DNA from: a virus
IMG/VR virus record: IMGVR_UViG_3300037961_003713
Location: 6,724-44,861 of that record
DNA length: 38,138 nt
Strand: one strand, 5' to 3'
A program made the translations under genes and the position numbers. Of the stretch, positions 12,799 through 38,138 are shown one piece after another. The stretch's first letter is position 1. Each line of letters begins with the position of its first letter. The notes under the pieces are model-generated. The model was not told the DNA's origin. It worked only from the letters and a program-made list of their open reading frames with translations, and did not search any database.

Positions 12799-12804
12799 AT
12801 AATT

Positions 12805-13037: not shown

Positions 13038-13043
13038 GCAATC

Positions 13044-13084: not shown

Positions 13085-13105
13085 AAAAACTTTTTTTTCT
13101 TTTTG

Positions 13106-13154: not shown

Positions 13155-13174
13155 ATAAAACGCCCCAATAAGGC

Positions 13175-13200
13175 AAAAAAAAAGCCCCCTCGCGGGGGTT
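13175..13200 (-). terminator. Terminator of the gene at 13205 (minus)
   Basis: On the minus strand CCCCCGCGAGGGGGC runs into nine T. It begins 4 nt after the stop codon of the gene at 13205. Confidence 0.85.
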
Positions 13201-13204
13201 GATC

Positions 13205-13438: not shown

Positions 13439-13451
13439 AATGATATAATAA

Positions 13452-13483
13452 GGGCGCGATCTCCAAGGCCATCGCGCTGGCCC
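13452..13483 (-). promoter_or_regulatory. Intergenic hairpin
   Basis: GCGCGAT (13454-13460) pairs with ATCGCGC (13471-13477) in the 52-nt gap between the genes at 13491 and 13205. On the minus strand it is followed by TTATTATAT. It may be a weak terminator, an RNA stability element or part of a promoter. Confidence 0.45.
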
Positions 13484-13490
13484 ATAATTA

Positions 13491-13766
13491 TTACTTGCAA
13501 GGCCCGTCCGAAAACCAAGCCTCTGGATCATCGTCTTCGTCGCACTTGAAAGCGTTCTCAAATGCGGCATCGCGCTCGGCCATGATCTCGGCCATGTCCT
13601 TGTGGTAGGCGTCCAACTCGGTCTTGGTGAGTAGCGGCCCGTGAGTGGCCTCGACAGCCTCCCAGCGTTCGCGCTCCTCGTTGCCCCGCTCCCACTCGCG
13701 AAATTCAATCTCGGCGGCGATGTCGGGGGTGATGGTTTCTTCGATTGTCATGTTGTCGTTCATCAT
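13491..13766 (-). CDS. Acidic hypothetical protein, 91 aa
   Basis: A 91-residue, Glu-rich helical protein (TIEETITPDIAAEIEFREWERGNEER region, later YHKDMAEIMAERDAAFENAFKCDEDDD). The start at ATG 13766 (or 13763) lies 9 nt after the -10 box; the longer frame from 13787 begins inside the promoter. No family is recognised. Confidence 0.65.
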   Translation of the reverse strand: MMNDNMTIEETITPDIAAEIEFREWERGNEERERWEAVEATHGPLLTKTELDAYHKDMAEIMAERDAAFENAFKCDEDDDPEAWFSDGPCK

Positions 13767-13775
13767 CTTGAAAAC

Positions 13776-13803
13776 AAGATACCACAATTCAGCAAAAAGT
13801 CAA
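13776..13803 (-). promoter_or_regulatory. Promoter for the gene at 13766 (minus)
   Basis: TTGACT (13803-13798), 16-nt spacer ending TGTGG, TATCTT (13781-13776); ATG 9 nt further. Confidence 0.8.
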
Positions 13804-13852
13804 GCCCTCAAATTAAAAAAGTTATTCACAGCCGCCAACTGTCCAACTTTTC

Positions 13853-13902
13853 CTTGACATGTGACCTCGGGGGGCAGCCCCCCCCTTGAAAAAAATGCAA
13901 GC
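13853..13902. repeat. GC-hairpin element, copy 7
   Basis: CTTGACATG arm, GGGGGG-CAG-CCCCCCCC core, A-rich stretch and a diverged right arm ATGCAAGC. It lies between two minus-strand units. Confidence 0.8.
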
Positions 13903-13924
13903 TTTTTATATTAATTTAAGACAA

Positions 13925-13955
13925 GAAAAAACCCCGCCTTGTTTTGGCGGGGGCG
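13925..13955 (-). terminator. Terminator of the gene at 13965 (minus)
   Basis: GCCCCCGCC/GGCGGGG stem with AAAACAA loop, followed on the minus strand by TTTTTTC. Confidence 0.85.
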
Positions 13956-13964
13956 TGGTGGTGT

Positions 13965-14168
13965 TTAGCCTCTCGCTAACTCTCGGCGGCAGTCTTGCTT
14001 AATCTTATGAAAACTGCCTCTATCTTTAGGAGTCGTTGAAGTAACAACGAACCGATTGTTTTCGAGGAGCAGTCTCATGTGACCGCTCCGCTTTGCCATT
14101 TGAAAGGCTACCACCTTGATGCCAGCTTTGGCGAGGTATTCCTTGATTGCTTTTTGTCTCTTCTTCAT
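13965..14168 (-). CDS. Small basic hypothetical protein, 67 aa
   Basis: A 67-residue basic protein (MKKRQKAIKEYLAKAGIKVVAFQMAKRSGHMRLLLENNRFVV...). The shape of a short basic helix, then strand, then a R/L/E strand is reminiscent of small DNA/RNA-binding hotdog- or HicA-like folds (the order K-x-G-x-G-H-x-R is only loosely similar), so this is not claimed. Second gene after 14342, with an 18-nt gap. Confidence 0.6.
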   Translation of the reverse strand: MKKRQKAIKEYLAKAGIKVVAFQMAKRSGHMRLLLENNRFVVTSTTPKDRGSFHKIKQDCRRELARG

Positions 14169-14186
14169 GTTTCGTTTTTTATTAGA

Positions 14187-14342
14187 CTAATTGATTTGCC
14201 ATTTGTTTTTAAGGTTGGTGGCGAGTTTACCGTTTGAATTGGTAACGAAAACTCTATTTCCTACCACAATACGTTTGGCTTTGTTTTCTTGTCGGGTAAC
14301 TCTGTCCCGAAGTTCTTTGAGTTTCTGTATCACTTGCTTCAT
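14187..14342 (-). CDS. Small basic hypothetical protein, 51 aa
   Basis: A 51-residue protein starting MKQVIQKLKELRDRVTRQENK (basic helix) followed by RIVVGNRVFVTNSNGK. The second part resembles the RFVVTSTTPK part of the downstream protein, so the two may be related. Its promoter lies 8 nt upstream at 14351-14378. Confidence 0.6.
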   Translation of the reverse strand: MKQVIQKLKELRDRVTRQENKAKRIVVGNRVFVTNSNGKLATNLKNKWQIN

Positions 14343-14350
14343 CTACTTAC

Positions 14351-14378
14351 AATTTAGCACAATTTGAGCAAAAGTCAA
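14351..14378 (-). promoter_or_regulatory. Promoter for the genes at 14342-13965 (minus)
   Basis: TTGACT (14378-14373), 16-nt spacer ending TGTGC, TAAATT (14356-14351); ATG 8 nt further. Confidence 0.8.
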
Positions 14379-14397
14379 CTGTGGAAAGTCATTTTTT

Positions 14398-14688
14398 TTA
14401 ATTTCTTTTTGCGTAGAAAATTTCTCTCTCATCCACAAAACTATTCCAGAAAGGAAGGCGAGCCAATACTTGCCAATCCCACTTGTCAGAGGGGTTAGTC
14501 TTAACGAGACGCAAGCCCAAGTTGCGAGTGCGAAAGAGCTTCATCTTTTCTGGAAGGTCTGCAATGTCGTAGCGGTGAAAAGAGTTGTCCGCATAAACAA
14601 AGTGCGCTTCATTAGCACCGTTTGCCAATGCTTCGTTATACCTTTTCAGTGTTTCGGGGCTGAGTTGTTCTAAAATGTTCTCGTTCAT
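14398..14688 (-). CDS. Hypothetical protein, 96 aa
   Basis: A 96-residue protein (MNENILEQLSPETLKRYNEALANGANEAHFVYADNS..., ending FVDEREIFYAKRN). ATG 14688 lies 9 nt after a clear -10 box; the longer frame to 14844 runs antisense through the neighbouring gene and promoter. No family is recognised. Confidence 0.65.
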   Translation of the reverse strand: MNENILEQLSPETLKRYNEALANGANEAHFVYADNSFHRYDIADLPEKMKLFRTRNLGLRLVKTNPSDKWDWQVLARLPFWNSFVDEREIFYAKRN

Positions 14689-14697
14689 TGTTCTTAT

Positions 14698-14726
14698 ACT
14701 ATAACACAGGTTTACTGATTTGTCAA
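14698..14726 (-). promoter_or_regulatory. Promoter for the gene at 14688 (minus)
   Basis: TTGACA (14726-14721), overlapping the stop of the gene at 14723; 17-nt spacer ending TGTGT; TATAGT (14703-14698); ATG 9 nt further. Confidence 0.85.
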
Positions 14727-14923
14727 GCGGTTTCTGAATAAAACTTAAACATTTCTTCCAGCTTCTTGAGGTGTCCGTTGTGTGTGCCTTCGTTGGCTTC
14801 GTGTTGTAAACGGCTGAAGATTCCCACACACTTTTGATAGCCAAAGCCTTTTCTCTTGGCGTATTCGATGGCCTTGATCATTCTAGCGTGTGCGTTGTTA
14901 GTTGGTCTGTAGTAGCTGCTCAT
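14723..14923 (-). CDS. Small basic hypothetical protein, 66 aa
   Basis: A 66-residue helical-looking basic protein (NNAHARMIKAIEYAKRKGFGYQKCVGIFSRLQHEAN..., ending FKFYSETA). Start ATG 14923, 9 nt after its -10 box, with the same ATAAGAACAATGA context as the gene at 14688. No family is recognised. Confidence 0.65.
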   Translation of the reverse strand: MSSYYRPTNNAHARMIKAIEYAKRKGFGYQKCVGIFSRLQHEANEGTHNGHLKKLEEMFKFYSETA

Positions 14924-14932
14924 TGTTCTTAT

Positions 14933-14961
14933 AGAATACCACAGTTCTCTCTATTTGTCAA
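14933..14961 (-). promoter_or_regulatory. Promoter for the gene at 14923 (minus)
   Basis: TTGACA (14961-14956), 17-nt spacer ending TGTGG, TATTCT (14938-14933); ATG 9 nt further. Confidence 0.85.
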
Positions 14962-14994
14962 GGGGTAAAAAGATTTTTTTTTATGTATTTTTTG

Positions 14995-15041
14995 CTTGAC
15001 AAGATCGTGGGGGGGCAGCCCCCCCTGTGCCAAATGTCAAA
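14995..15041. repeat. GC-hairpin element, copy 8
   Basis: CTTGACAAG arm, GGGGGGG-CAG-CCCCCCC core, TGTGCCAAATGTCAAA right side. It sits between the divergent promoters at 14933-14961 (minus) and 15083-15110 (plus). Confidence 0.85.
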
Positions 15042-15082
15042 CATTATGGGGAAATTTTTTTTACTTTTTTTTATTTTAGGGG

Positions 15083-15110
15083 TTGACTTTTTGCGGGGTT
15101 GTGGTATACT
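15083..15110 (+). promoter_or_regulatory. Promoter for the gene at 15120
   Basis: TTGACT at 15083-15088, 16-nt spacer ending TGTGG, TATACT at 15105-15110, ATG 9 nt downstream. Confidence 0.8.
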
Positions 15111-15119
15111 GTTTACACA

Positions 15120-15305
15120 ATGAAGGACATGAAGAACACAAACTGGACAAGCTACAAACGCCACCGTTTCAACAAAGCAGAGTTTGACGCAGAGATGGCT
15201 CGCATTGAAAAGCAGACTTTTGTACTACAACACATAACATCCTTTTGTATCGGGGCAAGCATTGCACTTGGATTTGTTTTAATTCATATGAATTATTTTG
15301 CATAA
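15120..15305 (+). CDS. Small membrane protein, 61 aa
   Basis: A 61-residue protein. The basic N-terminal 35 residues (NWTSYKRHRFNKAEFDAEMARIEK) are followed by one membrane segment (about residues 40-58, SFCIGASIALGFVLIHM). It likely sits with the N-terminus in the cytoplasm. The longer frame from 15099 is promoter. Function unknown. Confidence 0.65.
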   Translation: MKDMKNTNWTSYKRHRFNKAEFDAEMARIEKQTFVLQHITSFCIGASIALGFVLIHMNYFA

Positions 15306-15310
15306 ACCCC

Positions 15311-15339
15311 TTGACTAAACCCTAAACCTGTGTTACATT
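15311..15339 (+). promoter_or_regulatory. Promoter for the endolysin operon
   Basis: TTGACT at 15311-15316, 17-nt spacer ending TGTGT, TACATT at 15334-15339, ATG 8 nt downstream (15348). Confidence 0.8.
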
Positions 15340-15347
15340 TAATCAAG

Positions 15348-15473
15348 ATGAACGAAGAAAACAACTACAACGAACAAGACGCACAAACCGCCAAGCTCCT
15401 CGACATGGTCTGCGAAGGTATAGAAGTACCCACAGACGAAGAGATGGAAGAGGCATACAACTCTCACCACTAA
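15348..15473 (+). CDS. Small acidic protein, 41 aa
   Basis: A 41-residue acidic protein (MNEENNYNEQDAQTAKLLDMVCEGIEVPTDEEMEEAYNSHH). Promoter 8 nt upstream. The endolysin ATG follows its TAA directly, so the two are translationally linked. No family is recognised. Confidence 0.6.
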   Translation: MNEENNYNEQDAQTAKLLDMVCEGIEVPTDEEMEEAYNSHH

Positions 15474-19672: not shown

Positions 19673-20356
19673 ATGTCGAAAAAGAAGCTGGAATTTGAAG
19701 AATGTATCGAAAAGATAGATCACGAAATAACTAAACGTAAGAATAAGTGGAATCTTACGGCGATTAGTTGGATGGATTTTGATGATGTATCTCAAATTCT
19801 AAGAATACATATATTTAAAAAATGGCATTTATACGATCAAAGTCAACCTTTGGCTCCTTGGTTAAACAGGATAATATCAAACCAAATAAAAAATTTAGTA
19901 CGTAATAACTATGGAAACTATTCTCGCCCCTGTTTAAAGTGTGCGGCTGCCGAGAGTTCAGATTTATGTAAGATATACGGAAAACAAGATAGCACCTGTC
20001 CATTATATGCAAACTGGGAAAAAACAAAAAAAGTAGCTCACGATGTAAAAATACCATTACCTTTAGAGAACCACTCTCAAGAGGTTTTCAACATGAGCGA
20101 AGACAAAGTAGATTTACAAAGGAATATAGATAAAATACACAGTAAAATGCAAGAAGTCCTAAAACCTTTAGAATGGAAAATATATCAGTGCCTATATATA
20201 GAGAATTTAACAGAAGAGCAAACAGCGAAGAAAATGGGCTACAAAACCACAGAAAAAAATCGATCACCAGGATATAAACAAATTAAAAATATACAAAAGA
20301 TAATAATCGCAAAGGTTAAGAAGAATTTAGATACAGGGGAAATTGATATAATCTAA
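19673..20356 (+). CDS. Sigma-like RNA polymerase factor with a Cys-rich insertion
   Basis: A 227-residue protein resembling small (ECF/group-4) sigma factors. The region 2-like segment is residues about 34-80 (DFDDVSQILRIHIFKKWHLYD, then APWLNRIISNQIKNLVRNN). The region 4-like helix-turn-helix is about 160-215 (LEWKIYQCLYIENLTEEQTAKKMG). Between them sits a cluster C87-x2-C90-x8-C99-x9-C109, a likely zinc-binding insert unusual for sigma factors. It would direct host RNA polymerase to phage promoters. AAGGA precedes the start; the stop overlaps the next ATG (TAATG). Late-gene sigma is the favoured role, by position. Confidence 0.75.
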   Translation: MSKKKLEFEECIEKIDHEITKRKNKWNLTAISWMDFDDVSQILRIHIFKKWHLYDQSQPLAPWLNRIISNQIKNLVRNNYGNYSRPCLKCAAAESSDLCKIYGKQDSTCPLYANWEKTKKVAHDVKIPLPLENHSQEVFNMSEDKVDLQRNIDKIHSKMQEVLKPLEWKIYQCLYIENLTEEQTAKKMGYKTTEKNRSPGYKQIKNIQKIIIAKVKKNLDTGEIDII

Positions 20357-21441: not shown

Positions 21442-22381
21442 ATGTGCAATTTGCAATAAAGAATTCGAAAATGATCGAAAATTACACGCTCATCTAAAAG
21501 CACACAAGATGAGGATGGCTGAGTATTATCAAACTCAATACCCTAGATACGACAAGTACGATGGCAAGATAATTAAATTTAAAAACAAAGTTCAATATTT
21601 CGAGTCGGACTTTAATTCTAGAACCAATCTTAGAATGTGGCTAAAAAACTCCACCGCAGAAGAAGCCAAGCAGTATTGCAAAGAAATCTTAAAGTCAAGA
21701 AAAAATAAAAAAGACTTAATATATTCTCCCTCGCAAGTTGAATTAAGAACTCTGATGTTTCCGCCAATTCAATACTACAATAAAATATTTGGTGATTATT
21801 ACAAACTATGCGAAGAGATAGGGCTTAAAAATAAATACAGTAACACAGAAGAAGTTATTAGCCACTCTGAGTGGCAAAAGCCAGAATATGAAATTTTAAT
21901 AGACACAAGAGAACAGCGTCCACTCAAGTTTAAGAGAAATGTAAAATTAATGAAGCTTGATTATGGAGACTATGCATTTAGTAGCTCTGAGGCTTCGTGT
22001 AAGGCGTTTATTGAGAGAAAGGCTGTAGGAGACTTCCTTGGTACTATAAGCGGCGGATACGAGCGTTTCGAGCGCGAAATACAACGTGCCGTAGAAGATG
22101 ACGCAAGCTTGATAGTTGTAGTAGAGCAAAAGCTGTCAAAAGCTATACATTTTAACCAACAAAGGAAAAGTCATGGAGGTTTAGTATACAACAAAGTAAG
22201 AGCTACTCCAGAGTTTATTTTTCATAGAGTTAGATCATTATGTCAAAAATATCCAAGTATACAATTTTTATTTGTCGATGGTAAAAAAGAATCTTCCAGA
22301 ATAATAGAAAAGATTTTTACTTGCGACTGCGTCTATAAAAAAACAGATTTACAACTAGCCTACGATACAGGTAAATTATAA
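21434..22381 (+). CDS. C2H2 zinc finger-ERCC4-type nuclease
   Basis: A 315-residue protein. The N-terminal C2H2 finger is C4-x2-C7-x12-H20-x3-H24. The C-terminal nuclease domain of ERCC4/XPF/Mus81 type has D157-T-R159-E160 (ILIDTREQRPL), GDY at 178-180 and E194-R195-K196 (FIERKAVGDFLG), with a SGGYERFEREIQRA segment after. These residues form the metal-dependent ERKxxxD-like centre that cuts branched DNA in the family. Between them is a linker of about 120 residues. It overlaps its neighbours on both sides (8 nt and TAATG), so it belongs to the packaging operon. Confidence 0.85.
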   Translation: MVKCAICNKEFENDRKLHAHLKAHKMRMAEYYQTQYPRYDKYDGKIIKFKNKVQYFESDFNSRTNLRMWLKNSTAEEAKQYCKEILKSRKNKKDLIYSPSQVELRTLMFPPIQYYNKIFGDYYKLCEEIGLKNKYSNTEEVISHSEWQKPEYEILIDTREQRPLKFKRNVKLMKLDYGDYAFSSSEASCKAFIERKAVGDFLGTISGGYERFEREIQRAVEDDASLIVVVEQKLSKAIHFNQQRKSHGGLVYNKVRATPEFIFHRVRSLCQKYPSIQFLFVDGKKESSRIIEKIFTCDCVYKKTDLQLAYDTGKL

Positions 22382-24216
22382 TGTGGTACGCAAATCCAAA
22401 TCAGCCAAGCAGAGCGGAAGAAATAAATAGTCAACTTCTCAATCTTGAGGGTGAACTAGAAGATAAAGAAGCGAAAATAACATTAGCTAAATTTTTGCGA
22501 AATAATCTTGCGTTTACTACAGAGTTAATCTCTGGTATAAAACTCGCTCCATTTCAGGAAATAACTTTAAGAGCAATGCTCAATAGGAATTTCTCAATGT
22601 GCGTTTGGGGTCGTGGCTGCGGTAAAACTTTTATTGCGTCTGTATTTTGTTTCATGCAGTGTATATTTGAACCAGGTACAAAGATTCTCATAGCGGGGCC
22701 AACTTTTCGTACCGCTAGATTTATATTCAATAATTTAGAAAAGATAGTAAATTCGAAAGGCGCAGAACTTTTGTGTCAAGCTTTTGGCGCGAAACCCTCA
22801 AAAAGAAACGATCAATACGAATGGATAATTAATGGAGGCTCGATTACGGCGGTTCCTCTTTCGGGTGAAAAGATTCGTGGTTTTCGCGCAAACATTTTGG
22901 TTCTTGACGAGTATCTTTTGTTGCCAGAGGAAATTATTAAAACCGTATTGATGCCGTTCTTGGTGGCTCCTCAAGACATGTCCGAACGAATAAAAATTCG
23001 CGAAATGGAAGACAGTTTAATCAAGGCTGGCAAAATGGAAGAAAACCAGCGCATGGTATTCGAAAATAACTCTAAAATGGTAGCGTTATCATCTGCTTCT
23101 TACACTTTCGAAAATTTATATAAAACTTACAAAGATTGGACTCACAAAATATACAGCCCAGAAGAGTCTGGAGATTCTTCTTATTTTATTTCTCAAATGG
23201 GATACGAGTCTTTACCAGAAGAGATGGTCGATAAAACAATTATTGATGAGGCTGCTTCAGGTGGAACATCTAATTCCTCTTTCATGAGAGAGTATTGCGC
23301 TCAATTTACAGATGGCAGTGATTCATATTTTAGTGCTAAAAAAATGCATAATTGTACTATAGATGATGGCCAAGTACCCACAACCTTAATCAAAGGCGAG
23401 TCTGGCAAAAAATATATATTGGGGATTGACCCATCTTTTTCAAATAGTCCAAGTTCTGACTATTTTGCTATGTCGCTACTGGAAATGGACGATGCAACTA
23501 AACAGGGTATCTTGGTGCATAGTTATGCCGTCGCTGGAGGAGATTTAAAGCAACATATAGATTATCTTTATTACTTAATGACAAGCTTTAACATTGAAAT
23601 GATTTGTATTGATAATGCGGGATTTGGCTTTATTGATAGCTGCAACGAATCAGAATTGTTTACTAAGGGAAATTTAAATTTAGATTTCTTTGATTTCGAC
23701 ACGAACAAAGAAGGTTTAGCTTACAAAAAAGAATTGATAAAAGTCAGAAGAAACTATAACAAAGAATCTGGTAAAATTGTATTTAAGCAGATTTTTATTT
23801 CGGATTGGTTACGTAAAGCCAACGAACATTTACAGGCTTGTATAGATCATCAAAAAATATGGTTCGCTTCTAAAACAGTGGCAAACCCATCCGAGTTCAA
23901 TAGACAAACCGCTAGACATATTCCGACCAAGTTAACTGGATCAGAAAATATGCTAGAACTTATAGAAACTCAAGATGACCTTATTTACCAAACCAAGAAA
24001 CAATGCGCTATGGTCGAGGTTAAAAGCACTGCAAGAGGAACACAGACATTTGACCTTCCGCAGCATTTAAAACGCTCCACAAGCGCGAACAGAGCCAGAA
24101 AAGATAATTATACAACACTTATGTTAGCAAACTGGGCGTTGAAATCGTATTATGATGTGATGGCAGTCGATAAAGATCAAACAAATGATACTTTTAATCC
24201 AATAATGATACCATAA
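22381..24216 (+). CDS. terL: Terminase large subunit
   Basis: A 611-residue protein. The ATPase half has Walker A GRGCGKT (77-83) and Walker B ILVLDE (172-177) after an adenine-binding [12 protein letters not shown] segment. The nuclease half has D350 (YILGIDPSF), then [11 protein letters not shown], then a third acidic site in [10 protein letters not shown]. It cuts concatemeric DNA and drives it into the prohead through the portal. Its length is normal for the family. The ATG overlaps the upstream stop (TAATG). Confidence 0.92.
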
Positions 24217-24235: not shown

Positions 24236-25138
24236 ATGGCCGACAATAGACTTAGAATATCGCAAATATATACTCCAGATATTTCTGGTTACGTTAATAC
24301 CGTGATTAGCAATGCCAACTTGGCTGGCCCAACCGGAGCTACCGGAGCCACTGGAGCAGATAGCACGGTTGCGGGTCCAAGTGGACCTACTGGACCAACT
24401 GGCGCAGATAGCACTGTAACTGGTCCAACAGGGCCAACAGGTAATACTGGCATTTCTGTAACTGGCCCAACTGGACCCACTGGAGCAGATAGTACAGTTA
24501 CAGGACCAACTGGCCCCGCTGGCCAAACTGGACCCACCGGAGCAATAGAAAACATGGTTTACGATGCGGGTTCTTCGACTTTCTTGCTCCACGAAAAAAG
24601 TTTAAAGTTTGGAAAAACTGGTATATTCTCTGGGGCTAATGATGGATATATTTATGTTGAACCTAGTAATGACGATTTAGTTATTAGAAAAGCAAACCAA
24701 GACGTACAAATAACCGTTGATGGAAACGTTGGTAATGTTGGCCTTCATTTGCCTACGGGTACAACCCCATCTTATGCTTTAGATGTTTCGGGAGGGGCTG
24801 GTTTTAGAGGTGCTACCTCTAATAAAGTTCTTATTAGCCATGAAACTGACGGGTCAGAAATCAAGCTACATAACTCTGCTGGAACAGCTAAAACAAAAAT
24901 TTCGTCTCACGAAAATAGTTGGCTTCTGGGCGGGTTTTTAGGGGTTGGAGATTCGACTCCAGACTATCCAATAGATGTAACGGGTATGGGTAGATTTCAA
25001 CATGTTATACTTACTGGGTTAGCTCCAGCTACCCCCAGTAGCCTCGGCGTAGTCGGACAAATGGCTACTAGCGGAACTTATTTATACGCTTGTACTGGGG
25101 TTAATCAATGGGGTAGAGTCCAACTTAGTTCTTGGTAA
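24236..25138 (+). CDS. Collagen-like repeat protein, 300 aa
   Basis: A 300-residue protein. Residues about 30-105 are Gly-X-Y repeats, mostly Gly-Pro-Thr, with recurring GADSTV and GISVT interruptions. Then comes a beta-rich region with heptad-free strands ([38 protein letters not shown]) and a C-terminal [26 protein letters not shown] end, typical of trimeric fibre or decoration proteins. Collagen-like repeats make extended trimers on virions. Its place between terminase and portal, both assembly genes, is unusual. It starts 20 nt after the terminase stop. Confidence 0.8.
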
Positions 25139-25200: not shown

Positions 25201-25221
25201 ATAGTGTAAATTTAATTGAAA

Positions 25222-27225
25222 ATGAGCGTAAAAAAGAACACCACTACGGGCAAAAAGCAAAATTCTGCAAATAACGCCAAAGAAGAGGAAAAAAGCCTAT
25301 TAGAAACACAGGATACTTCTCCCTTGATGGCAGAATTTTCTGACTCGTCTACAGCCTCATCAACAAGAACTCGCAGAAACGCGGCTTCTACGATGACTCG
25401 CAGCGATAGATACAAAAATATCGAAGATGGCTTAGTTCCTTGGAAATACACCACAGGATCAAAATACCAAAAGGCTGGCCCCAAAGCTATAGACATAGAA
25501 GAAGCTGTTGCGCTTTGTCAAAAAGCTTATTATAATTTTTCAGTATTTAGAAACACAATCGATTTAATGACGGAGTTCTCTGTTAGTGATATATATCTAC
25601 GGGGAGGCAGTAAAAAATCTAGACAGTTCTTTGAGGCGTTATTTAGAAAAATAAACATAATTGAATTCATGGACAAGTTCTTCCGTGAGTATTATCGTTC
25701 TGGTAACGTGTTTGTGTATAGATTTGATTCTGTTTTAAGAAAGGAAGATTTAAGAAAAATCACACAAACATTTGGGTCTGGCCTTAGCTCTTTGAGTCAA
25801 GACAACTCTTTATTGATTCCAACTAAATACATGATTCTGAATCCTGCGGATGTAAGACTTACAGGTTCACTAACTTTTAATTCAGGGACTTATTCTAAAG
25901 TAGTTACTGATTACGAGTTACAAAAGCTACAAAACCCGACCTCCGAAGAAGAAAAAGAATTAGCTGAATCGTTACCAGAGGAAGTAAAAAAACAATTAAA
26001 GTCTAAAAAGATTTCTTCGGTAATGATTCCTTTGGATACTCAGAAGGTTCAGGCTATTTTTTACAAAAAGCAAGACTACGAACCATTCGCTGTTCCTATG
26101 GGTTATCCTGTTTTAGAGGATATAAACGCCAAAGCGGAAATGAAAAAAATTGACATGGCTATAGCTCGCACAATGCAGCAAGCCATCCTTTTGGTTACTA
26201 TGGGTTCCGAGCCAGAAAAAGGAGGGGTCAACCAGAAGAATTTACAGGCGATGCAAAAGCTTTTCGCTAACGAGTCTGTTGGTAGAGTTTTAATTGCAGA
26301 TTATACAACTCAGGCTGAATTTGTTGTACCCAAGATCGGAGAACTTATGGACTCCAAAAAATATGAAATCTTCGACAAAGATATCAGAATGGGCCTCAAC
26401 AATATTTTAATTGGAGAAGATGAAAAATTTGCTAACACGAGCATAAAAGTAAAAATCTTCATAAAGAGATTAAAGCAAGCTCGTAAAACTTTTATTAATG
26501 ATTTTCTTTTCCCAGAGATTAAAAGAATTTGTCGTCAGCTAGGATTTAAAAACTTTCCTACTCCTTATTTTGAAGATATAGATATTAGAGACGAGCTATC
26601 TTACGCTAAAGTCTACAATAGACTAATGGAGCTTGGCGTACTAACTCCAGAGGAAGGTTTAAAAGCAATCGAAAGCGGGAAGCTTCCCGATTTGGAGGAG
26701 TCCGTGGAAAATCAAAACGTTTTCAAAGAGTTGAGAGAGAAAGGTATTTATCAACCTCTTGTCGGGGGCAAGGTAAATCTAGACGATAACGAAGATGAAG
26801 GCGAAGAGGTTTCGCAACCCGCGCCTCAACCTGGTAGACCCGACGGAACAGATGGTATACCTCAAGACAACCCAAGAACCCCAACGGATAACCAATCACC
26901 AGCATCTAGTTTCTTTAGTTTAACTAAAGTTAAAGATAATTTAATATTAGCTCAAAAATTAACAAGTGAAGTTGAAAAAGAGCTACGCTCAAAGCATAAA
27001 ATCAAAAGATTAACAAACAAGCAAAAAGAAGTAGCTAATTGTATATCTGAAGTTATTATTGCTAATGAGCAATCTGAAGATTGGATTAATAAAATCAAAC
27101 AATATGTAGATAGCCCAATCGACACAAACGCCGCCAGAACAAAAGAAATAAATAAACTAGCGGCAGAGCATCAAGTAGACTATTATTTAGCTTCTATTTT
27201 GTATGCAAGCACAAAGGAAAATTAA
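25222..27225 (+). CDS. Portal protein
   Basis: A 667-residue protein. It has a long disordered N-terminus (Thr/Ser/Lys-rich, residues 1-60), then the portal-like core with RNTIDLMTEFSVSDIYLRGG, FMDKFFREYYRSGNVFVYRFD and a MILNPADVRL segment. A long acidic Pro-rich stretch follows (about residues 515-565, QPAPQPGRPDGTDG). It forms the dodecameric ring through which DNA enters and leaves. Start ATG 25222; TTG two codons earlier is rejected. Identified from position and typical segments; no catalytic motif exists to confirm. Confidence 0.75.
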   Translation: MSVKKNTTTGKKQNSANNAKEEEKSLLETQDTSPLMAEFSDSSTASSTRTRRNAASTMTRSDRYKNIEDGLVPWKYTTGSKYQKAGPKAIDIEEAVALCQKAYYNFSVFRNTIDLMTEFSVSDIYLRGGSKKSRQFFEALFRKINIIEFMDKFFREYYRSGNVFVYRFDSVLRKEDLRKITQTFGSGLSSLSQDNSLLIPTKYMILNPADVRLTGSLTFNSGTYSKVVTDYELQKLQNPTSEEEKELAESLPEEVKKQLKSKKISSVMIPLDTQKVQAIFYKKQDYEPFAVPMGYPVLEDINAKAEMKKIDMAIARTMQQAILLVTMGSEPEKGGVNQKNLQAMQKLFANESVGRVLIADYTTQAEFVVPKIGELMDSKKYEIFDKDIRMGLNNILIGEDEKFANTSIKVKIFIKRLKQARKTFINDFLFPEIKRICRQLGFKNFPTPYFEDIDIRDELSYAKVYNRLMELGVLTPEEGLKAIESGKLPDLEESVENQNVFKELREKGIYQPLVGGKVNLDDNEDEGEEVSQPAPQPGRPDGTDGIPQDNPRTPTDNQSPASSFFSLTKVKDNLILAQKLTSEVEKELRSKHKIKRLTNKQKEVANCISEVIIANEQSEDWINKIKQYVDSPIDTNAARTKEINKLAAEHQVDYYLASILYASTKEN

Positions 27226-27228: not shown

Positions 27229-28383
27229 ATGAGCGAAGAAAATCATAAAAAAGAAGAGGACGTTGTATCGTACAACTTTGGTGGGGATATAGATATCTCT
27301 TTACCAGAGATACCAATTCCTGCTGCGGCAGAGAAAAAAGAAGTAGCAAAAGATGAATGTGACGTAGCATTTAAATTTGCTTTCATAGGTGCTGGGCAAG
27401 GCGGCTCAAGAATCGCGGAAGCTTTTTATAATCTGGGCTACAGAAAATTATCTGCTATTAATACAGCGCAACAAGATTTAAATACAATTAAACTTGACAA
27501 CAAGTTGTGCATTGGTGACGGCGGTGCTGGTAAAGACCCAGCCAAAGCAGAAAAATTATTCAATGGAAGAAAGGAAGATGTCTTAGACTTCATGAGAGAC
27601 TCTTTCGGTGATGATATTGATAGAATTTTTGTATGCGCTGGTGCTGGCGGGGGTTCTGGTGCTGGAATGTGTGAACCCTTGATTCACGCCGCAGAAGAAC
27701 TTCAGCAGATAGTAAATGCCACCAACAAAAAAGTGGGCTGCATTTTGGCTTTACCCAAACACTCGGAGGGTAAAAGAGTGAATGAGAATGCTCACAACAC
27801 TTTAGTTAAAGTATTAGACTTGGTTGAGAAAGGAACCGTTTCTCCTTTAATTATTTTAGATAATGAAAAAGTTCATCAGCTTTATCCTGGTTTAGCTGTC
27901 AACTCTTTCTGGAGAACCGCTAATTCTAGCACGGCAGGATTATTTCATTTATTTAATTTAACAGCATCAAAAGATAGCAGCTATTCTTCTTTCGATTCTA
28001 ATGATTACAAGCAGTTATTGGATTCAGGCTTGATAGTTTTTGGTGCTTCTCCTGTTCCAGATTGGCAAAACGCTTCCGACATAACTAAAACAGTTAGAGA
28101 CAATCTAAGAAATAATATTCTTTCTGGCGGTGTTGATTTAAGCACGGGCAATTCTGCTGGCGTTGTTATGATCGGAGGAAAAGAAGTTTTAGATAATGTA
28201 CCTCAAGAAAACTTAGATAGAGCTTTTGATCAATTTACGAGAATCTTAGGCCCGCACAGCGTTGTTCATAGAGGTATTTATAGTGGCGACAAACCTACAC
28301 TGACGGTATATACGTTAATTGGCGGGTTGGGCAAGCCAGAAGAAAAAATAGGAGAATTGAAGAAATTAGGAGAACTACAATAA
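27229..28383 (+). CDS. Tubulin/FtsZ-superfamily GTPase
   Basis: A 384-residue protein. After a 45-residue acidic leader come FIGAGQGGSRIAEAF (52-66, T1-like loop) and SAINTAQQDL (75-84, matching the FtsZ AINTD-type T3 segment). GDGGAGKDP (96-104) follows, then the tubulin signature GAGGGSGAG at 138-146 (FtsZ GGGTGTG equivalent). ALPKHSEGKR and LIILDNEKV match FtsZ T5/T6 positions. A T7-like FDSNDYKQLL then leads to GLIVFGASP. Tubulin-like proteins bind GTP and polymerise. It starts 3 nt after the portal stop and is in the head gene cluster, unlike known phage tubulins (PhuZ, TubZ) that I know of. Confidence 0.85.
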   Translation: MSEENHKKEEDVVSYNFGGDIDISLPEIPIPAAAEKKEVAKDECDVAFKFAFIGAGQGGSRIAEAFYNLGYRKLSAINTAQQDLNTIKLDNKLCIGDGGAGKDPAKAEKLFNGRKEDVLDFMRDSFGDDIDRIFVCAGAGGGSGAGMCEPLIHAAEELQQIVNATNKKVGCILALPKHSEGKRVNENAHNTLVKVLDLVEKGTVSPLIILDNEKVHQLYPGLAVNSFWRTANSSTAGLFHLFNLTASKDSSYSSFDSNDYKQLLDSGLIVFGASPVPDWQNASDITKTVRDNLRNNILSGGVDLSTGNSAGVVMIGGKEVLDNVPQENLDRAFDQFTRILGPHSVVHRGIYSGDKPTLTVYTLIGGLGKPEEKIGELKKLGELQ

Positions 28384-28450: not shown

Positions 28451-28663
28451 ATGGCTACTAAAAATAATGATGTTAAACCAGGTTGGAAAACCACTGAGTT
28501 CTGGATCACAGTTTGCGTTACTTTGGCTTCTTTAGCTTGGGGTGCTGGTGTGGTAGACCCAGAGGGCAGCACTAATGCTGATAAAATCTTTGGTTTCATT
28601 TGCTCTGCCGCAGCGGGTTTGGGTTATACCATTTCCAGAGGCTTGGCTAAGAAACAAGGTTAA
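28451..28663 (+). CDS. Holin-like membrane protein, 70 aa
   Basis: A 70-residue protein with a polar N-terminus (KNNDVKPGWKTTEFW) and two membrane segments (about 17-36 and 46-62), ending basic (RGLAKKQG). This GWKTTEFW-plus-two-spans layout is typical of small class II-like phage holins. AAAGGA lies 9 nt before the ATG. It begins a cluster of membrane and lipoprotein genes. The endolysin is 13 kb away. Confidence 0.65.
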   Translation: MATKNNDVKPGWKTTEFWITVCVTLASLAWGAGVVDPEGSTNADKIFGFICSAAAGLGYTISRGLAKKQG

Positions 28664-28669
28664 TCTTTT

Positions 28670-28831
28670 ATGACTTGGTTAACTGCATTGTTTAAGGCAA
28701 TCTTAGATTGGCTTACTGCGGAGGTAAAAAAAGATACCAAAGCAAGCGATGCAGATAAAACACCACAATCTTTAAAAGATAGATGGAAGCAGAGAATACA
28801 AGAACAGGAAAATAAAGTTAATAAGAAATGA
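28670..28831 (+). CDS. Small amphipathic protein, 53 aa
   Basis: A 53-residue protein. The N-terminus is amphipathic (MTWLTALFKAILDWLTAEVKK), and the rest is charged and probably helical (LKDRWKQRIQEQENKVNKK). Only 6 nt separate it from the holin-like gene, and its stop overlaps the lipoprotein start (ATGA). It could be a membrane-associated lysis partner (i-spanin-like), but there is no true membrane span. Confidence 0.6.
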   Translation: MTWLTALFKAILDWLTAEVKKDTKASDADKTPQSLKDRWKQRIQEQENKVNKK

Positions 28832-29037
28832 AAGCTTTACTTCTAATTGGTTCAATCTTTCTTTTGGGCTGCGGCTCTACGAGGGTCGTATTTGTAGACA
28901 CACAGTCGAACTTGGTCCGCATCGGACCAAACGTCGAAGGTAAAGTATACGTCTTAAAAGATGGCGAATGGATACTATCTAAGAATAAGGTAAGATTACC
29001 TGAAGGGTGGTATGCTGGGGGTATTCCGCAGGAATAG
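28828..29037 (+). CDS. Small lipoprotein, 69 aa
   Basis: A 69-residue protein with a signal peptide ending in a lipobox (IFLLGC, Cys15), then a compact beta-rich domain (VVFVDTQSNLVRIGPNVEGKVYVLKDGEW). It would be anchored to the outer leaflet of a membrane. With the holin-like gene and the 53-aa gene it may form a lysis cassette (o-spanin-like), by position only. A terminator follows. Confidence 0.65.
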   Translation: MKALLLIGSIFLLGCGSTRVVFVDTQSNLVRIGPNVEGKVYVLKDGEWILSKNKVRLPEGWYAGGIPQE

Positions 29038-29065
29038 TCTTCCACATTTACCTTCGGCCAACTAA

Positions 29066-29093
29066 GCTCACGGAGAAATCCGTGGGCTTTTTT
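29066..29093 (+). terminator. Rho-independent terminator
   Basis: GCTCACGG (29066-29073) pairs with CCGTGGGC (29080-29087) with one U-G, then T6. Confidence 0.9.
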
Positions 29094-29107
29094 GCTTTTT
29101 AATAGTG

Positions 29108-29113
29108 TATAAT
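29108..29113 (+). promoter_or_regulatory. Likely -10 box TATAAT without clear -35
   Basis: GTGTATAATAT directly after the terminator and upstream of the gene at 29147. No TTGACA at 17 nt. It could depend on the phage sigma-like factor or another activator. Confidence 0.4.
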
Positions 29114-29146
29114 ATATTTACGCAACTTCATAAAGGAAAACTAATT

Positions 29147-29407
29147 ATGAAAGCAAAAGATAAACATAAATTAAAAGTGAGTAATCCGCCCCCAAAATCG
29201 CTTTTTTACGCTAATAAAGCCTCGATTCGGGGAGGTTTAGCTAAAACACGAGACGGAATTGCTATAGCGTTTTTTGTAGTAGCTATGGTGTTTTTTACTA
29301 TATTTTCTATTTTGAGTGTAATTGATAATAAGGACAAAGAGGAAAATGAGAAAAAAACTACTCCAACTCAAAGGTTTAAAGAACTCATTTTCAAACCTTT
29401 TATGTAA
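29147..29407 (+). CDS. Single-span membrane protein, 86 aa
   Basis: An 86-residue protein. The basic N-terminus (residues 1-37) is followed by a membrane span at about 38-58 (GIAIAFFVVAMVFFTIFSIL) and an acidic/basic tail. AAAGGA precedes the ATG. It overlaps the next gene by 62 nt. Function unknown. Confidence 0.65.
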   Translation: MKAKDKHKLKVSNPPPKSLFYANKASIRGGLAKTRDGIAIAFFVVAMVFFTIFSILSVIDNKDKEENEKKTTPTQRFKELIFKPFM

Positions 29408-29714
29408 ATTCAAAAACGAAATTTTTGTATTTGTAATAACTTGCATTATTGCATTTCTCGTTATTGTAATTCAAAACTTGACCGCAAACACTAAGTCTTT
29501 AATGTTAATTAAAGATAATGATTTATTAATGCTTGAAAATTTAAATATGAAAGTTATTAATAGCAGACAAGACGCGCTAATCAAACAACAACAAGAATAC
29601 ATAAACGAACTTGAGAAGCTTAAGAGGGCTGTTCTTGAGGGTAACTATATAAATCATGAAACAAATAAAGATACTAAACAAAGAAACGGCAAAGTGGTGG
29701 GGGAAGGAGCCTGA
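29346..29714 (+). CDS. Membrane-anchored coiled-coil protein, 122 aa
   Basis: A 122-residue protein. Membrane span at about residues 24-46 (EIFVFVITCIIAFLVIVIQNL), then a coiled coil (DNDLLMLENLNMKVINSRQDALIKQQQEYINELEKL, about 55-95). This is the shape of an inner-membrane spanin (Rz-like) but without further support. It overlaps its neighbours on both sides (62 and 59 nt). Confidence 0.6.
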   Translation: MRKKLLQLKGLKNSFSNLLCKFKNEIFVFVITCIIAFLVIVIQNLTANTKSLMLIKDNDLLMLENLNMKVINSRQDALIKQQQEYINELEKLKRAVLEGNYINHETNKDTKQRNGKVVGEGA

Positions 29715-29925
29715 CACAACATGGGCCTTGAAAAAGGGAAATGATTGGTGGCTGCTTCATCCTGAAGTAAAACCACAAAAACAAAAAGAGCCGCGAAAGG
29801 CGAAAGAGACTTTTAGTTTCTCTAAATTTTTAGTAGCCTGTTCCTTGGGCAGTTTTGGCGGTTTGTGTCTGTTTTCTTTTATTTACTTTTTAACCCTGTT
29901 AACGAAAATCTATTATGCCAAATAA
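29656..29925 (+). CDS. Single-span membrane protein, 89 aa
   Basis: An 89-residue protein. The polar, Trp/Lys-rich N-terminal half (NKETAKWWGKEPDTTWALKKGNDWW) is followed by a C-terminal span at about 60-83 (VACSLGSFGGLCLFSFIYFLTLL). Overlaps the genes on both sides. Function unknown. Confidence 0.6.
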   Translation: MKQIKILNKETAKWWGKEPDTTWALKKGNDWWLLHPEVKPQKQKEPRKAKETFSFSKFLVACSLGSFGGLCLFSFIYFLTLLTKIYYAK

Positions 29926-30424
29926 AGCTTTATTACTTTGTTTGCTAGTCTCATTTTGTCTTATTAACATAAGCTGCTCTATTTTAAATCCAGAGTGGGT
30001 TGAAAAAGACGCAGAAGGTTACTACGTAAGGCACTATAGCTCTTGTGGCCCAAAAGCTTTACACAAAGCGTTTGAAGTCTTGGATTTACATTTATCGCAA
30101 AAACAAATATCTAGAGACATCCAAGATACAGGCAACGTTATAAGAACCTTGTCGGCTTCACTAATACATCATAGAACCGTATGGATGTCATTACCTAGCG
30201 AAATAAAGCAAGTGGCTGAAAAATATAATTTTAATATATTAGAAGTCAGCGAGCTAAAAGATTTAGATAAAAAAATAGATGTAGCCATTGTACTGATCTC
30301 TGGAAGATATCACAAGGGAGAATTACATTGGCTGTGCTTTCCTGCGGATATAAATATAACTAAATATTTTGGAGACAAAACAAAAATACATAAAATCTTT
30401 CTTCTGCAAAAAAAAGTTGACTAA
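29915..30424 (+). CDS. Lipoprotein with C39-like cysteine peptidase domain
   Basis: A 169-residue protein. Signal peptide with lipobox at C21 (INISC). Then a papain-like C39-type pattern: catalytic Cys C44 in SSCGPKALHKAFEVLD and catalytic-type His H138 in GELHWLCFPADINITKYF. C39 domains cut leader peptides after double Gly or act as bacteriocin-type processing proteases; here it would be on the outer side of the membrane. It overlaps the previous gene by 11 nt. The role in phage is unknown (superinfection exclusion or lysis control are guesses). Confidence 0.65.
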   Translation: MPNKALLLCLLVSFCLINISCSILNPEWVEKDAEGYYVRHYSSCGPKALHKAFEVLDLHLSQKQISRDIQDTGNVIRTLSASLIHHRTVWMSLPSEIKQVAEKYNFNILEVSELKDLDKKIDVAIVLISGRYHKGELHWLCFPADINITKYFGDKTKIHKIFLLQKKVD

Positions 30425-31567: not shown

Positions 31568-33169
31568 ATGAAAGAATTCAAGAATACAACAATTTTTAGT
31601 TCAAAGATTAAGCCTTTGGTATCTGAAGAAAAAGATCAATATCTAGCTATGGCTAGTTTGATGGATGTGGCTGATTTTATACCAGACATAGACACCGAAA
31701 AGAATATTGACTTACTGCCGATTGCTTTTAATGCTTTTGTTGCTAATAGAGTTAATAAAAATGACGACGTTCTGGATGGCGAGACTGCCGTTTTGATCGC
31801 TGAAAATTTTATAAACAAACCAATCAATATTGAGCATGATCGCCACAAGGTTATCGGTACTATTTTGAATGTTGGATTCAGCGAATTCGGAACTGATAAA
31901 TCTTTAGCTGCTAGTGATATCAAAAACATAGATGGCCCTTTCAACGTCACCTTGGGGGGCGTGTTATGGAGGGTTGTGAATAACTCGCTTACCGACATGA
32001 TCGAGGAAGCTAGTGATCCAACTAGTCCATTTTATCAAAAAATATCAGCAAGCTGGGAGTTAGGCTTTGATGACTATCAACTGGTTCTTTTGCCAGATGG
32101 AAAGAAAAACATAGAAGACGCCGAAATCCTAACGGACGAAGAGGAAATAGGCGAAGCCAAAGCTAATTTAAGGTCTTTAGGCGGCACGGGAGAATACAAA
32201 GATAAGAAAATATACAGAAAAACAGTAGGAAACGTAGTTCCTTTGGGGATTGGTCTTACTGAAAACCCAGCCGCAGATGTGGTTGGAGTCGCCACAGAAT
32301 CTTCCAATAAAGATAAAGAAAATCTTTTTGAAGAAAAAGAAGAAAAAATAGAAAAAGCTCAAGAAGAAGGTATTATTACTGAAAACCGAGTTTTTGAAAA
32401 AAATAGTTCACATGTTCAGGAAACTGATGTAATTGAAAATAAGGATAGTGTTATGGAAATTAAAAGCATTAACGACATTAACGAGGAAACTCTCAAAGAG
32501 GTTTCTGCTTCGTCTGTTACTGAGTTCATTCAAAGCGAGCTAGAGAAGGCTTCCGAAGAGTTCGCCGCTGAAAAAGTGGCCCTCGAAGATGCCGTGAAGG
32601 CCGAATCTGAAAAGAACGAAGCTTTACAGACTGAGCACAACGCTGTTAAAGAGGAACTTGACAAGCTCAAGGCAAATCTTGAACAGTTAGAAGCTGAGAA
32701 AATTGAGAGGGATAGAATTGAAACATTTAACGAGCGTATGTCCACTTTGGATGATCAATATGTTCTCAGCGATGCTGAACGTGAATTGATTGCTTCTGAA
32801 ATCAAGGATATGGGTGAGGAAGATTTTTCTGCATATGCAACCAAGCTTGAAGTCTTTTTGAAAGACAAAAGCAAAGAAGCTATTGCAGAGAAAGAGGCCG
32901 CTGCTTCGGAAGAGGTGGTAGCCGAAACGACTGAAGTTGTGGAAGAGACTGTGGCATCTGAAGAGGTGAAAGCCGAAGAAGTTACAGAGGAAGCCGCTGC
33001 CGAAGTGCAAGAGGAAACAGCCTCTGAAGAGGAAGTGATCGAGGAAGCTATTGACCAAGCTGAACAAGTTGAAGCTGGTATTCCTGTTACTGCCCCTGCT
33101 GAAGAGCCTACTGTTCAAGATAAATATAAAGATGCCTTCAGCATCGATAATTTTGACATTAAACTATAA
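31568..33169 (+). CDS. Prohead protease fused to scaffold
   Basis: A 533-residue protein. The N-terminal 230 residues look like a prohead serine protease of the herpesvirus-assemblin-like fold, with His H90 in INIEHDRHKVIG and the Ser in KISASWELGF (S160/S162). The rest is a long Glu/Ala coiled coil (about 295-500), as in scaffolds, ending in a conserved-looking KDAFSIDNFDIKL. A start codon at 32453 (residue 296), preceded by AAGGA, could produce a separate scaffold protein as in lambda C/Nu3. The role is to build and then digest the capsid scaffold. Order before decoration-like and major capsid genes is classic. Confidence 0.8.
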   Translation: MKEFKNTTIFSSKIKPLVSEEKDQYLAMASLMDVADFIPDIDTEKNIDLLPIAFNAFVANRVNKNDDVLDGETAVLIAENFINKPINIEHDRHKVIGTILNVGFSEFGTDKSLAASDIKNIDGPFNVTLGGVLWRVVNNSLTDMIEEASDPTSPFYQKISASWELGFDDYQLVLLPDGKKNIEDAEILTDEEEIGEAKANLRSLGGTGEYKDKKIYRKTVGNVVPLGIGLTENPAADVVGVATESSNKDKENLFEEKEEKIEKAQEEGIITENRVFEKNSSHVQETDVIENKDSVMEIKSINDINEETLKEVSASSVTEFIQSELEKASEEFAAEKVALEDAVKAESEKNEALQTEHNAVKEELDKLKANLEQLEAEKIERDRIETFNERMSTLDDQYVLSDAERELIASEIKDMGEEDFSAYATKLEVFLKDKSKEAIAEKEAAASEEVVAETTEVVEETVASEEVKAEEVTEEAAAEVQEETASEEEVIEEAIDQAEQVEAGIPVTAPAEEPTVQDKYKDAFSIDNFDIKL

Positions 33170-33193: not shown

Positions 33194-33742
33194 ATGGCAA
33201 CAACATTATTACCATTCAGAGATTATGACGAGCATGATGTAATCAATTTATTTGGGTTGCAAAGCTCTGCTACATTACCTGTTACCAAAGGTCACATGGT
33301 AAAGATCACAACGGGTTGGAAAAACACCGATGAGATTTCTTTACTTGGCGATGCTGGTAACAATTTCACCAACACAGTTTCCGAGCGTTACGGAGTAGTG
33401 GCTAGAGTCGGTTTGGCCGACGCTAACGATACCGACGTTTTGGGTATGCTTCTTCACGACGTTAAAGAAACTGATGAAAACGGAGAGAAACTTCTCTTTA
33501 ATCCTCGCAAAGCTGCGGAGATGGAAATTGCTCTCAGCGGTCAAGCCGTTCCTGTGTTAACTAGAGGCATTGTTTTATACAGTGGTTCTCAACTTACTAC
33601 AGACGATCCTGCTGCTGGTGCTGTTCTTTACTCCGACGCAAACGGCGAACTTACTACCAGTAATGGTGGCGGTGACGCAGTTGGCGTTGCTCTTGGAGCT
33701 AAAGATGACAACAATCACGTTTTAGTGAGAATTAATCTGTAA
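33194..33742 (+). CDS. Head decoration-like or capsid-adjacent protein, 182 aa
   Basis: A 182-residue Gly/Ala/Asp-rich beta protein (GHMVKITTGWKNTDEISLLGDAGNN..., then VPVLTRGIVLYSGSQLTTDDPAAGAVLYS). Composition and position between scaffold and capsid genes fit a decoration (head-stabilising) protein. The late part resembles a beta-barrel of decoration type. Not confirmed by a family match. Confidence 0.65.
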   Translation: MATTLLPFRDYDEHDVINLFGLQSSATLPVTKGHMVKITTGWKNTDEISLLGDAGNNFTNTVSERYGVVARVGLADANDTDVLGMLLHDVKETDENGEKLLFNPRKAAEMEIALSGQAVPVLTRGIVLYSGSQLTTDDPAAGAVLYSDANGELTTSNGGGDAVGVALGAKDDNNHVLVRINL

Positions 33743-33772: not shown

Positions 33773-34846
33773 ATGAAATTAAAGTTAAAAAACACTCCAG
33801 AGCAAGTTGAGCTTGTAAAAGCTATGGGTTCTAAGAATCAGGTTGCTGCAAGAGAAGCTCAAGAAGCTTTCGCAGCCTTCCTCGGACCAGTGGTTCGTGA
33901 GGTTCTTTCCCAAGCTGGCACAGCTTCGTCCGTCTATACAGACGCACCTTATGACGAGGATGACAGCCCAAGCTTCCCACTTGACCTATATTACAGCGAC
34001 TCCGACAACCATGTGTCCGTTTGGATGCAAGGCATGGCTGGTGGTCTTCCTTCTAGCCACGTTGAGGGCATGAATGAATTGAAGATTGCTACCTACCGTT
34101 TGGACAGCGCAATCAACATGAATCGCAAGTATGCTCGCAGAGCACGTTTAGACGTGATCAGCAAGGGTATTGAAAGAATGGCGCAGGAAGTTCTTGTGAA
34201 GCAAGAGCGCAATGCTTGGGCCGTTATCATCAAGGCTCTTGTGGATTCCACAACTCACGTTGTCGAGTCTGCTGCTGACGATGTCTTCCAGTTGGACGAC
34301 CTCAACAAGTTAATGACTAAAATGAGCAGACTCAATGAGTCTTTCGCTAACGGTACAACCGATGCTTCTCATGGTCTTACTGACTTGTACATGAGTCCTG
34401 AAATGGTTGAGCAAGTTCGCGGATTTGCTTACCAGCCAATGAATACCCGCAACGGTAAAGTTGGTGGAGGTTCCGACACTTCGACTTCGATTGCCCTTCC
34501 TGACAGTGTGCGTAGCGACGTGTTCAATAACGCTGGTGCTGCATCGATCTACGGTGTTAACATCAACGAAATGAATGAGTTCGGCGCAAGCAAGAAGTAC
34601 AACACACTCTACACATCACTCGGAGCGAGCTTCGCTTCTGGTAAGGGTGAGTTGGTTGTTGGTATCGACAATAGCCGTGGTGCTCTTATTCGTCCTGTGG
34701 CGATTCAGTCTGAAACAGGCGGACAGTTCCAAGCTCTTGCTGATGATCAGTGGAGCGCACGTTCTGACAAGATCGGTTTCTACGGATTCTTGGAAGAGGG
34801 TCGCGTTTGCATCGACAATCGTGCCATCGTTGGTCTCGAAATCTAA
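33773..34846 (+). CDS. Major capsid protein
   Basis: A 357-residue protein. Length, position after scaffold and decoration genes, strong AAAGGAG ribosome site and strongly optimised, GC-leaning codon use (CTC, CGC, AAG, GGT) compared with its AT-rich neighbours all point to the abundant major capsid protein, likely HK97-fold. Segments such as TYRLDSAINMNRKYARRARLDVISKGIERMAQEV and GLTDLYMSPEMVEQVRGFAYQPMN fit capsid E-loop/P-domain layout but no motif is diagnostic. A strong terminator follows. Confidence 0.85.
   Translation: MKLKLKNTPEQVELVKAMGSKNQVAAREAQEAFAAFLGPVVREVLSQAGTASSVYTDAPYDEDDSPSFPLDLYYSDSDNHVSVWMQGMAGGLPSSHVEGMNELKIATYRLDSAINMNRKYARRARLDVISKGIERMAQEVLVKQERNAWAVIIKALVDSTTHVVESAADDVFQLDDLNKLMTKMSRLNESFANGTTDASHGLTDLYMSPEMVEQVRGFAYQPMNTRNGKVGGGSDTSTSIALPDSVRSDVFNNAGAASIYGVNINEMNEFGASKKYNTLYTSLGASFASGKGELVVGIDNSRGALIRPVAIQSETGGQFQALADDQWSARSDKIGFYGFLEEGRVCIDNRAIVGLEI

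Positions 34847-35773: not shown

Positions 35774-38138
<2,365 letters not shown>

Follow-up and report, generated by a model that had tools for sequence, protein, structure and literature searches.

A tubulin with a predicted TubZ-like fold, encoded next to the portal gene in a clade of large uncultured tailed phages

The stretch of virus DNA analyzed here (IMG/VR record IMGVR_UViG_3300037961_003713; 38,138 nucleotides, in the following called the window) encodes a true member of the tubulin/FtsZ superfamily. It represents a separate family, with members on hundreds of contigs from uncultured viruses and in no fewer than three phage settings. Tentatively, and by analogy with PhuZ, this protein is regarded as an accessory late phage cytoskeleton that would place capsids, proheads or packaging sites.

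27229 to 28383, plus strand: tubulin/FtsZ-superfamily GTPase with a predicted TubZ-like fold (PF00091, AlphaFold2 model, VIA-align Z)

The ORF starts with ATG, codes for 384 amino acids and begins 3 nt past the stop codon of the 669-aa portal ORF (25216 to 27225), exactly as the earlier note on this DNA had described its position, strand and spacing. Two of the signatures on which that note had based its assignment, GAGGGSGAG (residues 138–146) and the FtsZ-type segment AINTAQQDL (residues 76–84), can be read directly from the translation. Profile searches agree with it, as the protein matches the Pfam family PF00091 with 44.4 bits (cut-off 33) and TIGR00065 with 55 bits (E 8e-15). The latter score is far under the FtsZ equivalog cut-off of 295, and an FtsZ orthologue was therefore ruled out. 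The TubZ-like_C profile PF22453 reached 20.1 bits, which is under its cut-off of 26. In a phmmer search of PDB sequences, RepX/TubZ-Bc (4ei7) was matched with an E-value of 1.9e-14; the identity to solved tubulins is about 20%. Host contamination as the source of the gene was ruled out as well.

An AlphaFold2 model was built from 29 relatives, with a mean pLDDT of 85.6 and a pTM of 0.84; values below 50 occur only at residues 1–19 and 34–36. The best Foldseek match is TubZ-Bt (2xka, E 2.4e-23), and TubZ-Bc was matched as well. Alignment with VIA-align to TubZ-Bc (4ei7) gave a Z of 36.6 with an rmsd of 2.5 over 330 residues at 20% identity, followed by CetZ2 (35.5), TubZ of c-st (32.0) and FtsZ (about 31), and all 721 of 721 aligned chains had a Z above 8. 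Judged from the model, the closest solved fold is that of plasmid TubZ. A dinucleotide-binding Rossmann protein, which the earlier note had named as the alternative, was ruled out because chains of the tubulin superfamily top the fold search; a Shikimate_DH match (13.8 bits) is below its cut-off. Among predicted viral structures (BFVD) the top match is A0A6J5RW92 of an uncultured Caudovirales phage (TM 0.82, 26% identity), which probably belongs to the same group, though distantly, and whose annotation as 'FtsZ' is itself only a database prediction. We know of no described biology for it. Predicted structures of PhuZ are far more distant (TM about 0.5).

The nucleotide-binding loops and the catalytic loop are among the best-conserved parts of the protein. 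Two of them are located in the gene as follows:

27640 to 27666, plus strand: glycine-rich T4 signature GAGGGSGAG (residues 138–146; direct reading)
27991 to 28005, plus strand: catalytic T7 loop F255-D256-x-x-D259 (invariant in 29 aligned relatives)

In the T4 loop of the window protein (GGGSGAG) a serine replaces the threonine of the pattern [SAG]GGTG[SAT]G. Many relatives have GGGTGxG, and GGG[ST]GxG is kept in nearly all of them. In the 29 aligned relatives, the invariant residues comprise G54, G56, Q57, G58 and G59 of T1 (GxGQGG), G98, G99, G101 and K102 of T3 (GGxGK), G141, G142, G144 and G146 of T4 (GGGxGxG), N212 of T6 as well as F255, D256 and D259 of T7. The same active-site residues are present in 90 distinct cores save in a few, which are taken to be truncated or variant. 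By structural element, conservation is 0.81–0.90 for the loops T1, T2, T3, T5 and T6 and for strand S9, and 0.76 for T7, compared with an overall mean of 0.68. The T7 loop is of the FDxxD type, like that of plasmid TubZ (FDASEF in 4ei7), and has Ser or Ala at the position of the first Asn of the FtsZ T7 loop. Among relatives pN is 0.02–0.12 and pS 0.43–0.86, and the family is under strong purifying selection. Conservation of this degree in the nucleotide-binding loops and the T7 acids makes it probable that the protein works as a GTPase and polymerises. The earlier note had also considered a divergent non-polymerising homologue. Such a protein, degenerate and retained for some other purpose, could explain the identity of only about 20% to solved tubulins and the missing first Asn of T7; it is a very improbable reading, because FDxxD, GGGxGxG and GxGQGG are invariant and selection is strong.

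The relation to known tubulins was analyzed in a tree of 42 proteins, which included seven PhuZ, three plasmid TubZ and FtsZ. The new tubulins form one group (93/95). Nearest to it is L044, a protein on a contig of a Chloroflexota MAG, followed by the three plasmid TubZ. The seven PhuZ lie beyond a 100/100 branch, with the new proteins, TubZ and FtsZ on its other side; the deeper order is unsure because of the long branches of FtsZ and PhuZ. The contig of L044 is 3.3 kb long and has a short integrase-like ORF, and the protein shares 32% identity with the tubulin; it may point to a source lineage. No relative of the window tubulin, and no PhuZ, was found with it by tblastn (E up to 1) in the 50,697 phage records of INPHARED, 179 of which match PhuZ of phiKZ by tblastn. 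In the literature consulted, phage tubulins are either PhuZ of nucleus-forming jumbo phages or TubZ of the c-st type. No description of the window family was found in this literature; one 2025 chimallin/phuz paper lies outside the comparison.

TubZ of the plasmid TubZRC (type III) systems is the best structural match, provides the closest named sequences and shares the FDxxE/D motif of T7. It differs in that TubR is encoded upstream and that it carries a long C-terminal tail, which in Bacillus and Clostridium is involved in cofactor recruitment (PMC3678025). The window protein lacks both, has an acidic N-terminal extension with a motif of its own, and is encoded by tailed phages beside the portal gene. 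With the FtsZ group it shares the fold, the glycine-rich T4 signature and the NTxxxDL segment, whereas its score falls far short of the equivalog cut-off and the C-terminus is short and variable in the family; in the window it is the short helix GKPEEKIGELKKLGELQ.

The likeness to TubZ raises the question whether the cargo of the filaments would be phage DNA, moved or held at replication sites or in a carrier state like that of a plasmid, and not capsids. The closest fold and the closest named sequences belong to plasmid TubZ, and the nearest outside sequence lies beside the integrase-like ORF on the Chloroflexota contig. However, in four of four plasmid TubZ loci an ORF of about 100 aa is found directly upstream, in the place of tubR, while no gene of the size of TubR directly precedes the window tubulin, where the portal gene is located instead. 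The C-terminal tail is also short, in contrast to the cofactor-recruiting tail of TubZ. Such DNA positioning is thus an unlikely function, although it deserves to be kept in mind.

PhuZ of the Chimalliviridae (phiKZ, 201phi2-1, RAY) resembles the window tubulin in being phage-encoded, present as a single copy, accessory and carried by large tailed phages. PhuZ is absent from a third of the Chimalliviridae (PMC10299810), and capsids travel on treadmilling PhuZ (PMC7950403, PMC10299810). In contrast, the window family forms a clade of its own, and the branch between the two is long and fully supported. A single-sequence search with ChmA of phiKZ, with phiKZ as positive control, gave no match in nine large, incomplete records, which proves little by itself. 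There may accordingly be no PhuZ-style nucleus for the filaments to center.

A further difference concerns the termini. The acidic C-terminal knuckle of PhuZ is critical for polymerisation (PMC3678025); the window tubulin has its acidic extension at the N-terminus instead. It comprises about 45 residues, mostly of low model confidence, and contains a short linear motif:

27286 to 27321, plus strand: short linear motif DIDISLPEIPIP (residues 20–31) in the acidic N-terminal extension (strict regular expression, relatives)

The earlier note had called this extension unusual. It is real, and extensions of such length are the norm in the family (median 51 aa, net charge about -9). The motif (DIxLPxIPLP) follows the pattern D-[IVA]-x-[LIVMF]-[PSG]-[DEN]-...-P. 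Of 90 distinct relatives, 71 match its strict form, where 0.035 would be expected after shuffling of the N-termini; the misses that were displayed are near variants like NISLPDIPMP. It occurs in all three phage settings. As it is kept across phages with unrelated head genes, its conservation more readily suggests a self-contact in filaments or a partner in the host than a contact with portal or capsid. It could be conjectured to be an N-terminal counterpart of the PhuZ knuckle.

The tubulin gene is located in a region of the window which comprises terminase, portal and further head genes or candidates for them:

22381 to 24216, plus strand: terminase large subunit, TerL (PF03237, Terminase_6N; phrog_2, E 7.6e-26)
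24236 to 25138, plus strand: collagen-repeat tail-fibre-like protein between TerL and portal (phrog_819 tail, E 5.8e-11)
25216 to 27225, plus strand: portal protein, directly upstream of the tubulin (phrog_16240, E 7.1e-6; conserved synteny)
28451 to 28663, plus strand: small membrane protein that by eye resembles a holin, encoded immediately after the tubulin (relatives)
28828 to 29037, plus strand: small lipoprotein, conserved downstream of the tubulin (66–88% identity in related loci)
31568 to 33169, plus strand: probable prohead protease-scaffold fusion (H90, S160/S162, coiled-coil tail)
33194 to 33742, plus strand: head decoration/cement protein (PF09956, 26.4 bits; phrog_122, E 1.1e-5)
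33773 to 34846, plus strand: probable major capsid protein, suggested by position (weak structural matches)

The portal gene is the second gene after TerL. Between tubulin and protease gene lies a lysis-like island (28451–30424). Its membrane protein is conserved in many relatives (61–88% identity in related loci), and neither this protein nor the small lipoprotein had a match in Pfam. The same island encodes, at 29915–30424, a lipoprotein which by eye resembles a papain/C39-type peptidase, with no clear family match. The putative protease gave no family match in Pfam or PHROG searches; its residues H90 and S160/S162 are invariant in 21 relatives, and its C-terminal half is coiled-coil-like. 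For the capsid candidate the AlphaFold2 model reached a pLDDT of only 61, and the best Foldseek matches are chains of phage portal-vertex/capsid structures, which are weak (E 0.015). The placement of the tubulin inside a head cluster, as claimed earlier, therefore stands firmly for the portal neighbor, and is less secure for the protease, which lacks a family match, and for the capsid protein with its poor model.

Just upstream of the TerL cluster, a protein with sigma-70 region 2 (19673–20353; PF04542, 26.7 bits) was found, a candidate late sigma factor conserved in the window lineage. Collagen-repeat fibre proteins are encoded at 24236–25138 and 35777–38137. Further upstream, the ORFs in about 6 kb (9500–15400) are all small and lie on both strands. 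The part from 11550 to 11840 may be structured; an Rfam search of this region found no family. The 15-bp G/C palindrome GGGGGGCAGCCCCCC occurs nine times in the window (0.01 expected), at 5616, 6821, 8719, 10644, 11869, 13123, 13869, 15010 and 16058, with a spacing of 0.75–1.9 kb in a region of tiny genes, and several copies are flanked by TTGACA...TGTCAA. Among small minus-strand ORFs, the element GGGGGNNGGACATNNGCNGTCC is present in three copies (12557–12578, 12816–12837, 13055–13076), without a match in Rfam.

Relatives of the tubulin are encoded on at least 340 IMG/VR contigs of up to 211 kb, with a single copy in each of 14 large records. The carriers are uncultured, mostly marine viruses of bacteria. 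The gene order ERCC4-TerL-portal-tubulin-...-protease-cement-capsid is maintained across the window lineage. The co-occurrence with the portal, which the earlier note had proposed to check, was found, as the tubulin directly follows the portal in 69 of 90 distinct loci with both genes, most of which were fetched through tubulin or TerL. An insertion of 0.2–5 kb separates the two genes in 20 loci, and in one the tubulin is located upstream of the portal. In this sole case (L271) the distance is about 3.4 kb and the N-terminus is Pro/Ala-rich. When loci were sampled by the portal alone, 8 had the tubulin, 37 were without it across at least 3 kb downstream and 30 were too short. In 20 whole records of tubulin-free sisters, which may be incomplete, no tubulin match was found anywhere.

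On the portal tree, the presence of the tubulin needs only 5 changes (shuffled mean 31), which indicates a clade-level accessory gene. Portal and tubulin identities are correlated (Mantel r 0.70, reached by 0 of 2000 permutations), so that the tubulin appears to have been passed on vertically with the portal, and it is more conserved than the portal in 85% of locus pairs. In the tubulin-free sisters, which have the same portal, protease and capsid genes, the interval between portal and protease is occupied by genes that by eye encode fibre-like, holin-like and lysin-like proteins and lipoproteins, in one sister by a single 196-aa gene. By this gene content, the interval is an island of accessory and lysis genes inside the head cassette, and the tubulin is what one clade carries there.

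The position directly after the portal in most loci and the co-inheritance with it would also suit a protein that is built into the prohead or the packaging motor or helps to assemble them. Sisters with the same head genes lack the tubulin, however. This absence indicates that head assembly can do without the gene, and no other finding argues as strongly against the tubulin being obligatory for assembly or packaging. Its clade-level distribution on the portal tree and its location elsewhere in myoviruses with other head genes argue in the same direction, so that this function is improbable. Of the role suggested in the earlier note, direct participation in head assembly or packaging is thereby weakened, and the positioning of proheads stays the best guess.

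The family was also identified in T4-like and jumbo myoviruses. The loci L020, L030, L031 and L032 and their relatives, among them the 211-kb record G001, are without a TerL of the window type. G001 encodes a tail sheath, a phrog_213 portal, UvsX and a DNA polymerase, and has a GC content of 0.53 in the sampled stretch. L024 and L029 are T4-like; L024 has a large terminase, a gp32-like SSB and a tail tube near the tubulin, with the terminase about 4 kb away. In the myovirus stretches examined, no recognised head gene adjoins the tubulin. Matches to phrog_23 occur in the myovirus settings and are missing in the window lineage; PF04984 was dropped as a myovirus marker, as it missed phiKZ and G001. 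A 158-kb relative (G013) contains a 502-aa ORF (L304:13130–14638) which by eye resembles a TnpB/IS605 OrfB nuclease. In the tree, the myovirus tubulins group together within the window family with a support of 100/99, so that the gene has moved between phage lineages.

A further reading is that the tubulin acts on the host, co-assembling with or capping host FtsZ or another factor, and would thereby block division or wall growth and keep a productive cell shape. Retention of the motif in phages whose head genes are unrelated is in keeping with a shared host partner. The gene adjoins lysis-like genes in the window, and among the T4-like phages it has the appearance of an accessory gene standing on its own. 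A simple inhibitor would, however, not need the full catalytic apparatus including T7, and the GC contents of the phage groups differ (0.39 and 0.53), which makes one shared host partner doubtful. We consider an action on the host quite unlikely.

The preferred reading remains that of a phage cytoskeleton. The gene for this TubZ-type tubulin with complete catalytic residues is an accessory gene of one clade of large uncultured tailed phages. We infer that it binds GTP and polymerises head to tail, with GTP hydrolysis at the subunit interface through D256 and D259 of the T7 loop of the next subunit. Dynamic filaments would form late in infection and would position or transport proheads and packaging sites within the cell. 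This cargo seems the most likely one because of the position next to portal and TerL and the precedent of PhuZ; in the T4-like and jumbo myoviruses, where the tubulin has no recognised head genes beside it, its location gives no such hint. The acidic N-terminal tail with DIxLPxIPLP may serve as a filament-bundling contact, like the PhuZ knuckle, or alternatively bind a partner that unrelated phages have in common.

With the same reserve, the family can be seen as a second, independently acquired phage cytoskeleton, which would be derived from TubZ, work without a nucleus, use its N-terminal motif for bundling or cargo, and have been passed from a widespread, mostly marine tailed-phage lineage to T4-like and jumbo myoviruses. 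As the family is distant from PhuZ and has spread to other large phages, phage cytoskeletons look commoner and more diverse than one would judge from jumbo phages that form a nucleus. The N-terminal motif is a concrete target for a partner search, and tubulin-bearing and tubulin-free sisters with the same head genes provide a natural experiment. The family makes it possible to test whether infected cells are actively organized by filaments in the absence of a phage nucleus.
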